Shown piece after piece: positions 4,483-7,943 of a DNA stretch of 40,490 nucleotides. Every line of letters starts with the position of its first letter. Positions within the stretch are counted from its first letter, which is position 1. The stretch covers positions 1 through 40,490 of the forward strand of contig JAUSMA010000057.1 in the NCBI GenBank assembly GCA_030645475.1. Direction: 5' to 3'. Made by a program: the position numbers and the translations under genes. The notes beneath the pieces were generated by a model. The model did not search any database. It was given only the letters and a program-made list of their open reading frames with translations, and was not told where the DNA came from. This DNA comes from Nitrospirota bacterium. GTDB taxonomy: Bacteria; Nitrospirota; Nitrospiria; Nitrospirales; Nitrospiraceae.

Positions 4483-5364
4483 ATGAATAGACTGTCGTGC
4501 GACTCCGTCGGTTCCCTCGATCAGGATGTGACCGCGAAACAGCTCCAATGGAAGGGTGCCATCCCCTTCCTGACCATCCACCTGATGTGCCTATGGGTCA
4601 TTCAGACCGGAATCAGCATGGAGTGGGTGGCGCTGGCCCTGGGGAGCTACTACCTGAGAATGGTCGCCATCACGGCAGGCTATCACCGCTATTTCTCGCA
4701 CCGCTCCTACAAGACCAGCCGGGTCTTCCAGTTTCTTCTGGCATTTTTCGCCATGACCTCTGCACAGAAAGGCGTGCTCTGGTGGGCCTCACACCATCGG
4801 CACCACCACAAGCACTCAGACCGGGCGGAAGATCGCCATTCCCCGCTGCAACGAGGATTCTGGTATTCCCATGTCGGATGGCTGTTGTCTGACGAATATA
4901 TCGAGACCGATTTCACGGTCGTGAGGGACCTGGTAAAATATCCTGAGCTGCGCTTCCTCAACCGCTTTCACGTCATTCCGCCAACGCTGTACGCGCTGAC
5001 GATGTATGCGCTGTGGGGGTTCCCGGGACTGGTCTGGGGTTTCTTCGTGTCCACCACTGTCCTCTATCATTGCACCTTCTTTATCAATTCCCTGACGCAC
5101 ATCGTCGGTCGGGTTCGATACAACTCCCGCGATGGGAGCAAGAACAGTTTCATCCTGGCGGTGCTCTGCTGTGGAGAGGGCTGGCACAATAACCACCATT
5201 ACTACCAATCGTCGGTCAATCAGGGCTGGTTATGGTGGGAAGTGGACTTCTCCTATTACGTCTTGACGGTCCTCTCCTGGTTCGGGATCGTCTGGGACCT
5301 GCGAACGCCGCCGGCCCACATCAAAGCCGCCATCCTCGCGACGGAACATACCTCCATCTTGTAG
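4483..5364 (+). CDS. Membrane fatty-acid (acyl-CoA/acyl-lipid) desaturase
   Basis: This di-iron desaturase introduces a cis double bond into a saturated acyl chain, using O2 and electrons. All three histidine boxes are present: HRYFSH at 68-73, HHRHHH at 104-109 with KHSD following, and GEGWHNNHH at 231-239; the supporting NSLTH is at 202-206. Four or more hydrophobic helices surround the boxes. Length 293 is typical of bacterial delta-9-type enzymes. There is no cytochrome b5 or ferredoxin domain, so electrons come from a separate protein. It is the first gene of an apparent operon with a Cfa-type methyltransferase and an FAD oxidoreductase, so its product is probably their substrate. Double-bond position cannot be read from sequence. 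Confidence 0.92.
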   Translation: MNRLSCDSVGSLDQDVTAKQLQWKGAIPFLTIHLMCLWVIQTGISMEWVALALGSYYLRMVAITAGYHRYFSHRSYKTSRVFQFLLAFFAMTSAQKGVLWWASHHRHHHKHSDRAEDRHSPLQRGFWYSHVGWLLSDEYIETDFTVVRDLVKYPELRFLNRFHVIPPTLYALTMYALWGFPGLVWGFFVSTTVLYHCTFFINSLTHIVGRVRYNSRDGSKNSFILAVLCCGEGWHNNHHYYQSSVNQGWLWWEVDFSYYVLTVLSWFGIVWDLRTPPAHIKAAILATEHTSIL

Positions 5365-5484
5365 CGAGATTGCTCGCGGCGGCAACGCCTGTTGTGTCGC
5401 CCTCCATCGGGGCTCATACTGCGCACGAGCCGCAATCTGCCCGAATCAACTCACTCGCCTGGTGGGGGAAAGAGGGTCCGCTCC

Positions 5485-6594
5485 ATGAATCGACAGCACG
5501 TTGTTCAAGAGTTGCTCGAGAAGGCCCAGGTGCACATCAATGGATCTCAACCGGGGGATATCCAGGTACACCATGATCGATTCTACGATCGCATCCTGAC
5601 CGAGGGTTCGCTGGGACTCGGCGAATCCTATATGGAGGGCTGGTGGGATGCCAACCAGCTCGACGAGTTCTTCTTCAGATTCCACCTGGCCCAGCTCGAT
5701 ACAGCCGTGCGCGATAAGCGCCTCATCCTGAACGTTCTCAAAGCTCGTCTGTTCAACATGCAGAATCGGCGGCGCTCAACCAGAGTGGCCCAACAGCACT
5801 ACGACCTCAGCAACGAGTTCTACGAACAGATGCTTGGCCCCCGCATGCAATATACCTGTGCTTACTGGAAGGGGACGAAGAACCTGGCGGAGGCACAGGA
5901 GCACAAGTTAGATCTCATATGCCGGAAGCTACAGCTCAAGAAGGGCGAACGTGTGTTAGAGCTGGGGTGCGGCTGGGGAGGCTTTGCCCATTTCGCTGCC
6001 TCCAACTATGGTTGCTCGGTCGTCGCCTATAACATTTCCGAGCAGCAAGTCGCCTACGCGCGGCGCTGGTGTGCCGGACTTCCCGTTGATATCAGACTCA
6101 TGGACTACCGTGAAGCGACGGGGGAGTTCGACAAGGTCGCCGCCATCGGAATCTGCGAACATGTGGGATATAAAAATTACCGCGACCTCATGGAAGTGGC
6201 CCACAGGACCGTCAAACCACACGGTTTGTTTTTGCTCCACAGCATCGGGAACAATGCCTCCGTCACCACCGGCGATCCCTGGTTCGATAAATACATCTTC
6301 CCGGGTGGCATGCTCCCCTCCGTCGCGCAACTGAGCGCCGCGATGGACGGACTCTTCGTCATGGAGGACTGGCATAATTTCGGGCCTGACTATGACCGCA
6401 CCCTCCTGGCATGGCAGAGCAATGTCGACGAGCATCGGGGACAATGGCAATCCTCTTTCGATGAGCGCTTCTCCCGCATGTGGCGCTACTATCTGCTCTC
6501 CCTCGCGGGGGCATTCCGCGCCAGGACCATCCACCTCTGGCAAATTGTCATGTCGAAGCGCGGGCTGATAGGCGGCTACGAAACCGTGCGGTAA
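5485..6594 (+). CDS. cfa: Cyclopropane-fatty-acyl-phospholipid synthase family methyltransferase
   Basis: This SAM-dependent enzyme transfers a methylene or methyl group to the double bond of an unsaturated acyl chain in a phospholipid. The 369 residues match Cfa (382 in E. coli). Visible landmarks are QHYDLSNEFY at 105-114, MQYTCAYW at 121-128, the SAM-binding motif VLELGCGWGGF at 157-167, and the EHVGYKNY region involved in the active site. The ATG at 5485 follows a GGGGGAAAGAGG stretch; an open frame upstream of it does not resemble the family. The stop codon overlaps the start of the FAD oxidoreductase gene (TAATG), showing tight coupling. In actinobacteria such pairs make 10-methyl branched chains rather than cyclopropanes, so TmsB/BfaB-like activity is an equal or better guess than classical Cfa. 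Confidence 0.9.
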   Translation: MNRQHVVQELLEKAQVHINGSQPGDIQVHHDRFYDRILTEGSLGLGESYMEGWWDANQLDEFFFRFHLAQLDTAVRDKRLILNVLKARLFNMQNRRRSTRVAQQHYDLSNEFYEQMLGPRMQYTCAYWKGTKNLAEAQEHKLDLICRKLQLKKGERVLELGCGWGGFAHFAASNYGCSVVAYNISEQQVAYARRWCAGLPVDIRLMDYREATGEFDKVAAIGICEHVGYKNYRDLMEVAHRTVKPHGLFLLHSIGNNASVTTGDPWFDKYIFPGGMLPSVAQLSAAMDGLFVMEDWHNFGPDYDRTLLAWQSNVDEHRGQWQSSFDERFSRMWRYYLLSLAGAFRARTIHLWQIVMSKRGLIGGYETVR

Positions 6595-7943
6595 TGGCCA
6601 TGATCTCGCATGAAGACCACGCCCGCAAACGGGAGTCTTTGATCAAGACTCTTCATACATCGAACACGACCGGATCCCTCGCCCTCGAAAAGTCCACATC
6701 TAATCTGTTCCGGCAGCGTACCGCTGAGCCGCGGCACAGACTGGATGTGCGCCACTTCAATCGCGTCATCCACGTTGACGAGAAAGAGCGCTACGCAGAA
6801 GTCGAAGGCATGACGACCTACGAGGACCTCGTCCGTGAAACGCTGCCGTTCCAGCTCATGCCCGCCGTCGTCCCCCAACTGAAATCGATTACCATTGGCG
6901 GAGCGATGGCCGGAATCGGCATCGAATCCTCCTCGTTCAAGTACGGGTTTGTCCACGAAACCATACTGGAGATTGACGTCCTCCTGCCCGATGGAGCCAT
7001 CGCGGTGGCCACCAAAGACAACGAGCACAGGGATTTGTTCTTCGGCTTCGCCAATTCCTATGGCACGCTGGGCTATGCACTCACAGTGAAGGTGCAGCTC
7101 GTGCCTGTCAAAAACTTCGTCAAACTACGGCACGAGCGCTACTCGAACCTCGAAACCTATTTCCAGGCGCTGGGACAGGTCTGCCAGGACCGGCAGGTGG
7201 ATTTTGTCGACGGCACATTGTTCGATGAACAGAGGCTCTATTTCACGACCGGTACGTTCGTCGACCAAGCCGAATGGCTCAGCGATTACACCGATCGGCA
7301 CATCTACTATCAATCGATCCCGCGCAACAAAATCGACTACCTCACGACGCACGACTATCTCTGGCGATGGGACACCGATTGGTTCTGGTGCTCAAAACAT
7401 TTCCTCGCACAGCATCCGCTCGTGCGCTGGTTATGGGGAAAGAAGCGTCTGAACTCCACGACCTATTGGAAACTGCGCAAGCTGTTCAATCACTCACGCA
7501 TCGCGCAGCTGGGGGCCAGAGTGCTTGGCGGACGGCAAGAGGCGGTGATTCAAGACGTGGAGATCCCGATTGAGCATGCACCGGCCTTTGCACGATTCTT
7601 CAATCAAGAGATCGGGATCAAGCCTCTGTGGATCTGTCCGGTCGCAGCCTATGATCCATCGGTCTCCTATCCGTTGTATCCCATGAATCCCCGGACGCTC
7701 TATGTCAACTTCGGATTCTGGGATGCCGTCAGAAGCGATCACGAGGAGGGCTATTTCAATAAAAAAATAGAAGCCAAGGTTCGGGAACTGAATGGCATAA
7801 AGTCTCTGTACTCGAATTCATTCTATTCGCGTGAAGAATTTTGGCAGTTGCACCACGAACCAACCTACCGCAAGCTCAAAGCTCGCTACGATCCGACAGG
7901 CAGACTGAAAGATCTCTACGAGAAATGCGTCCTCACACAGTGA
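6594..7943 (+). CDS. FAD-binding oxidoreductase (DHCR24/TmsA-like)
   Basis: This is a 449-residue flavoprotein with a PCMH-type (FAD_binding_4) N-terminal domain. A VEGMTTYEDLV segment lies near residue 65, and SITIGGAMAGIGIESSSFKYG with FVHETILEIDVLLPDG lies around 98-132. These are the nucleotide-binding signature of the vanillyl-alcohol-oxidase superfamily. The closest recognisable relatives are delta-24 sterol reductases and the actinobacterial TmsA/BfaA proteins, which reduce a methylene-acyl intermediate to a methyl-branched chain. The ATG at 6594 overlaps the last base of the cfa stop codon; upstream in-frame codons lie inside cfa. The C-terminus ends in LKDLYEKCVL. Function in branched-lipid synthesis is inferred from family plus operon; the fold is clear. 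Confidence 0.85.
   Translation: MAMISHEDHARKRESLIKTLHTSNTTGSLALEKSTSNLFRQRTAEPRHRLDVRHFNRVIHVDEKERYAEVEGMTTYEDLVRETLPFQLMPAVVPQLKSITIGGAMAGIGIESSSFKYGFVHETILEIDVLLPDGAIAVATKDNEHRDLFFGFANSYGTLGYALTVKVQLVPVKNFVKLRHERYSNLETYFQALGQVCQDRQVDFVDGTLFDEQRLYFTTGTFVDQAEWLSDYTDRHIYYQSIPRNKIDYLTTHDYLWRWDTDWFWCSKHFLAQHPLVRWLWGKKRLNSTTYWKLRKLFNHSRIAQLGARVLGGRQEAVIQDVEIPIEHAPAFARFFNQEIGIKPLWICPVAAYDPSVSYPLYPMNPRTLYVNFGFWDAVRSDHEEGYFNKKIEAKVRELNGIKSLYSNSFYSREEFWQLHHEPTYRKLKARYDPTGRLKDLYEKCVLTQ

Follow-up and report, generated by a model that had tools for sequence, protein, structure and literature searches.

Since 2001, some Nitrospira have been recognised chemotaxonomically by 11-methyl-hexadecanoate (11-methyl-16:0), a lipid for which we found no assigned genes in the literature searched. 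Does the three-gene operon on a contig from a Nitrospirota bacterium (JAUSMA010000057.1; 40,490 nucleotides, the whole stretch of DNA analysed here and called the window below) encode a route to a lipid of this kind? Judging from family membership, gene neighbourhood and inheritance, we consider it probable (about 0.78) that the operon product is a saturated fatty acid carrying a single mid-chain methyl branch.

The sequence-only reading of this DNA had described a desaturase, a Cfa-type methyltransferase and an FAD oxidoreductase in that order, the last two overlapping at a TAATG. All three open reading frames were indeed found on the plus strand in this arrangement (Table 1), and the overlap is present as well, the TAA stop at 6592-6594 having one base in common with the FAD gene ATG at 6594. 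The first in-frame start of the methyltransferase reading frame is a TTG at 5392, and the start supported by homologues is the ATG at 5485, which yields a protein of 369 amino acids, a length that is identical in all 19 relatives. The tight junction between methyltransferase and FAD gene is no accident, because the spacing of the two lies between -1 and +6 nt in 19/19 related loci, with the desaturase 43-148 nt upstream of the pair in 17 of them. A scan for promoters and terminators at the operon gave nothing informative.

Table 1. Features of the putative methyl-branching operon, in window positions.
Feature	Positions	Strand	Basis
Desaturase, membrane acyl (SCD1-like, three His boxes)	4483..5364	+	PF00487, E 3.6e-14
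Methyltransferase, SAM-dependent, E. coli Cfa family (predicted fatty acyl substrate)	5485..6594	+	PF02353, 2.6e-77; PRK11705
FAD-binding oxidoreductase, BfaA/TmsA family, proposed methylene-fatty-acid reductase	6594..7943	+	PF01565, 3.5e-14; T. curvata BfaA homology
TAATG overlap, methyltransferase stop/FAD gene start	6592..6596	+	read from sequence

The FAD protein, earlier described as TmsA-like, belongs to the BfaA family along its full length, with 48.6% identity (E 8e-151) over residues 1-446 of 449 to the BfaA of a genome (G481, the source of the BfaA and BfaB sequences compared here) that we take to be Thermomonospora curvata. PF01565 is its sole Pfam match, its predicted model has a VAO-type fold, and Foldseek returned cytokinin dehydrogenase and DprE1 (probability 1.00) and no BfaA structure; its GGxxxGxGIESSS motif presumably resembles that of DHCR24. 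An assignment to the TmpA type was rejected, as the geranylgeranyl-reductase-like TmpA belongs to the wrong flavoprotein family for a protein that matches only PF01565. A profile scan of bacterial genomes recovered actinobacterial and proteobacterial proteins 47-57% identical to it, most of them beside a Cfa-superfamily gene. The bfa operon of T. curvata, when placed in E. coli fed with oleate, gives rise to 10-methylstearate (PMC7791843).

The methyltransferase is 49.6% identical to E. coli Cfa versus 32.5% to T. curvata BfaB. In a phylogeny it sits in a supported clade inside the E. coli-type Cfas, apart from the proteobacterial partners of BfaA-type genes, and BfaB forms a separate clade (support 100/100). 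The TmsB/BfaB likeness suggested by the sequence-only reading thus stands for membership of the Cfa family and falls for orthology, the enzyme grouping with E. coli-type Cfa and not with BfaB. Its best Foldseek match is E. coli Cfa (6bqc), the predicted model has the expected fold, and it is the lone strong CMAS-family gene of the window genome (261 bits, the next best reaching 37). It also scores 552 bits against the NCBIfam equivalog PRK11705 (cut-off 400), which would name both this enzyme and a paired relative in L124 cyclopropane synthase. For these two the name is probably a misnomer, which suggests that automatic annotation misnames BfaA-paired E. coli-type methyltransferases. Separately, L124 is one of four contigs (with L126, L169 and L175) that carry the methyltransferase-BfaA pair under the labels Magasanikbacteria, Woesearchaeota or Patescibacteria, a finding that may reflect either misbinning or horizontal transfer.

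How could these enzymes act together? We propose that the desaturase would place a cis double bond into a C16 acyl chain, an alkene that other desaturases of the cell could supply too, and that the Cfa-type enzyme would transfer the methyl group of SAM to one of the alkene carbons. The resulting cation would lose a proton instead of closing a cyclopropane ring, leaving a methylene (or methyl-alkene) chain whose double bond the BfaA-type flavoprotein would reduce, a step for which T. curvata BfaA uses NADPH (PMC7791843); in Nitrospira the end product would most likely be 11-methyl-hexadecanoate. Such an operon, very probably one for methyl-branched synthesis, would represent a Bfa-type pathway with a different methyltransferase, derived from the E. 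coli Cfa lineage, the reductase family being already known.

The place of the desaturase in this scheme has to be qualified. Its closest PDB chain is acyl-CoA desaturase 1 (7e-28), and the boxes HRYFSH, HHRHHH and HNNHH are seen in the sequence alongside the PF00487 match. Of the 24 operon-bearing genomes, 22 have an orthologue of it next to the pair (G005 and G137 lack this orthologue), and the operon's desaturase is absent from the genome that we take, like locus L199, to be N. defluvii (G027). Since N. defluvii makes cis-11 16:1 all the same (PMC3660363), the operon desaturase is not the sole source of this acid. Of the direct route of desaturation, methylation and reduction that had been put forward for the operon, the methylate-then-reduce pairing therefore holds, and the desaturase as an essential step does not.

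Which branched acid would be formed? Both 11-methyl-16:0 and cis-11 16:1, named at the outset as Nitrospira lipids, are listed for Nitrospira species in PMC3660363, where 11-methyl-16:0 is the sole mid-chain branched acid given as a marker of the genus. N. moscoviensis, N. bockiana and N. calida have it as a major acid, which N. defluvii does not (Table 3, PMC3660363), and in lineage IV it amounts to 0.8% in N. marina and up to 2.3% in Ecomares 2.1 (Table 1, PMC3660363); the lipid-rich and the lipid-free species of that survey fit cis-11 16:1 as its precursor. The operon, in a comparison that left out N. moscoviensis, N. bockiana and N. calida, is present in N. japonica NJ1 (G001) and strain KM1 (G030), two carriers for which no lipid data were found in the literature, and absent from strain ND1 (G033) and N. 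defluvii. Lineage I, to which the latter two belong, is without operon and without 11-methyl-16:0, the lipid data coming from N. defluvii only. Lineage IV, which lies outside the Nitrospiraceae in the same order, has no operon and contains the traces of 0.8-2.3%, so another route to 11-methyl-16:0 must exist there.

That the operon product is 11-methyl-16:0 is plausible, at roughly even odds. BfaB methylates the far carbon of the double bond (C10 of a delta9 chain; PMC7791843), and 11-methyl-16:0 would accordingly need either a delta10 substrate or, from a delta11 chain, attack at the near carbon, for which UfaM, which methylates C11 of the delta11 chain of cis-vaccenate, provides a precedent (PMC7380195). 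It is somewhat less probable, and still a serious contender, that the product is branched in another way (10- or 12-methyl-16:0, or a C18 homologue) and that N. moscoviensis owes its 11-methyl-16:0 to other genes. Far-carbon attack as in BfaB would turn a delta11 chain into a 12-methyl acid, and both the operon-free traces in lineage IV and the synthesis of cis-11 16:1 by N. defluvii without the operon's desaturase are consistent with such a product. The near-carbon attack by UfaM within the same superfamily argues against it, as do the standing of 11-methyl-16:0 as the only mid-chain branched Nitrospira marker and a trace of 16:1 cis10 in Ecomares 2.1 (PMC3660363). As a concrete candidate, the operon makes the origin of the Nitrospira marker lipid directly testable.

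We think it unlikely that the methyltransferase is an ordinary cyclopropane synthase, merely co-transcribed with an FAD protein that acts on another substrate, although its position in the E. coli-type clade, its PRK11705 score and its complete bicarbonate site would all suit such an enzyme. Among 147 genomes of the family, the methyltransferase occurs in 24 (at >=73% identity) and the FAD gene in 25; in all 24 the FAD gene is present and adjacent, so that the methyltransferase is found alone in 0/147 and the FAD gene alone in one (Fisher p 1e-26, with the 147 genomes taken as independent and phylogeny ignored). Furthermore, the FAD family adjoins at least four unrelated Cfa-type lineages, that of the tested bfa operon included. 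In 231 genomes, the FAD gene was seen in no family of the order other than the Nitrospiraceae. The single unpaired copy (G091; L057:7507-8652) is a BfaA-type gene that lacks the first 67 residues and lies behind an unrelated gene, in a genome with neither methyltransferase nor desaturase.

Genomes that have lost the pair also argue for a common function. On the desaturase tree, the desaturase-only genomes G041, G067, G072 and G122, together with G057, nest among operon-bearing genomes. Two of them, G057 and G072, retain a whole desaturase and no methyltransferase, and all that is left of the FAD gene is a C-terminal remnant behind the desaturase; in G072 this remnant lies next to the RNase-like gene that also borders the window operon (synteny is kept). 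Methyltransferase and reductase were thus lost together, and the desaturase can persist, a pattern that fits a desaturase product with a use of its own and a methyltransferase product that needs the reductase to be of use. The methyltransferase and the FAD gene are inherited as one unit.

The distribution of this unit also differs among ammonia oxidisers. The window genome has no AMO gene. In one genus (g1) the operon is present in 4/10 ammonia oxidisers (G032, G048, G054 and G073), and this is the sole genus with operon-bearing ammonia oxidisers; in another (g6) it is found in 0/40 AMO-positive versus 7/24 AMO-negative genomes (p 0.0006, phylogeny ignored). We infer that g1 is the comammox genus of clade B and g6 that of clade A. 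The operon would predict which lineages are capable of making the lipid: some of the ammonia-oxidising genomes of g1 and not one of the 40 of g6.

The active site was compared residue by residue in an alignment to 6bqc. The bicarbonate-site residues C125, E225, H252, I254 and Y303 are all retained in the window methyltransferase, and the authors of the bfa study likewise asked for the bicarbonate-site residues in BfaB (PMC7791843). Just before the catalytic Glu, however, the window enzyme has Cys224 at the position of E. coli Phe238. This residue is Phe in the Cfas of E. coli, A. aeolicus and L. acidophilus and in 38/42 unpaired E. coli-type Cfas, none of which has Cys; a Phe before the catalytic Glu (GMFEHVG) as a mark of E. 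coli-type Cfa is an observation of this analysis and no established criterion. BfaA-adjacent methyltransferases with a readable motif (about five lineages; two further loci gave none) carry C, M, T, L or H at position 238 and F in no case, with Cys in the Nitrospira clade, Thr in BfaB, Leu in the proteobacterial partners and Met or His elsewhere. In L149 and L178, a second Cfa has Phe at this position and the BfaA-adjacent Cfa does not. The loss of Phe238 in paired clades and only a few others argues against an ordinary cyclopropane synthase, in a pattern that is non-specific in that some unpaired Cfa-like families are also without this Phe.

On a tree with more unpaired Cfas, the E. coli-type partners of BfaA fall into two groups, one with Cys and the other with Met at position 238. 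On a wider tree, the pairing with BfaA takes five changes, and supported branches force four of these. When the loss of Phe238 was set against pairing in a sibling-pair test, the result was not significant (p 0.5) because only 4-5 independent pairings exist. Tentatively, and with slightly more doubt than confidence, we suggest that the loss of Phe238 repeatedly turned cyclopropane synthases into methylene-forming enzymes as they joined a BfaA-type reductase. If true, Nitrospira and related lineages (Cys) and the second E. coli-type group (Met) would add new examples of this conversion among enzymes that databases annotate as cyclopropane synthases, and a change at a single residue would be a hypothetical explanation of the step from cyclopropane synthase to methyl-branching enzyme.

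Other arrangements of these families were seen as well. Some gammaproteobacterial BfaA-type genes have no adjacent Cfa-type gene (L125, L128, L129, L131, L133, L138, L165 and L190), and the L190 genome has one unlinked Cfa (L267) with Leu at position 238. On a Streptomyces virginiae plasmid (L227:928-3625), a desaturase, a gene of the nitroreductase/quinone-reductase family and an E. coli-type cfa form one tight operon, in which the reductase partner may be of yet another type.

A furan- or methyl-alkene-forming pathway akin to UfaM/UfaD/UfaO, without full saturation, is very improbable, for although the methyltransferases share a superfamily and UfaM attacks C11, the FAD partner here is a member of the BfaA family, and N. 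defluvii has a separate Cfa-like gene in a cluster with SDR, chalcone-isomerase-like and amine-oxidase-like flavoprotein genes (by eye). The Cfa-like gene of that cluster (L199:4300-9520) has the motif VEMIEAVG, and a SnoaL-like gene is also seen there by eye.

Methyl-branched synthesis by the Nitrospira operon, as we propose it, can be set beside four known systems. Akin to bfaAB/tmsAB of T. curvata and Mycobacterium chlorophenolicum, it combines the same reductase family with a Cfa-superfamily methyltransferase in two tightly linked genes; it differs in that its methyltransferase stems from the E. coli Cfa lineage, that the methyltransferase gene precedes the reductase gene (the reverse of the actinobacterial loci compared) and that a desaturase is the first gene of the operon. 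With tmpBA of Desulfobacter and Marinobacter it shares a Cfa-superfamily methyltransferase gene followed by one for a flavoprotein, and a C16 product, as predicted here, whereas TmpA reportedly resembles geranylgeranyl reductases and has no homology to BfaA (PMC7791843). E. coli Cfa (6bqc) resembles the Nitrospira methyltransferase in sequence (49.6% identity), fold and bicarbonate-site residues, and is set apart by Phe238 in place of Cys224 and by the co-inherited reductase and the operon with a desaturase on the Nitrospira side. Finally, UfaM of Rhodobacter sphaeroides transfers a methyl group to an acyl chain without ring closure, at C11 of a delta11 chain, as the Nitrospira enzyme may do, but together with UfaD and UfaO it leads to a furan fatty acid and not to a saturated chain.
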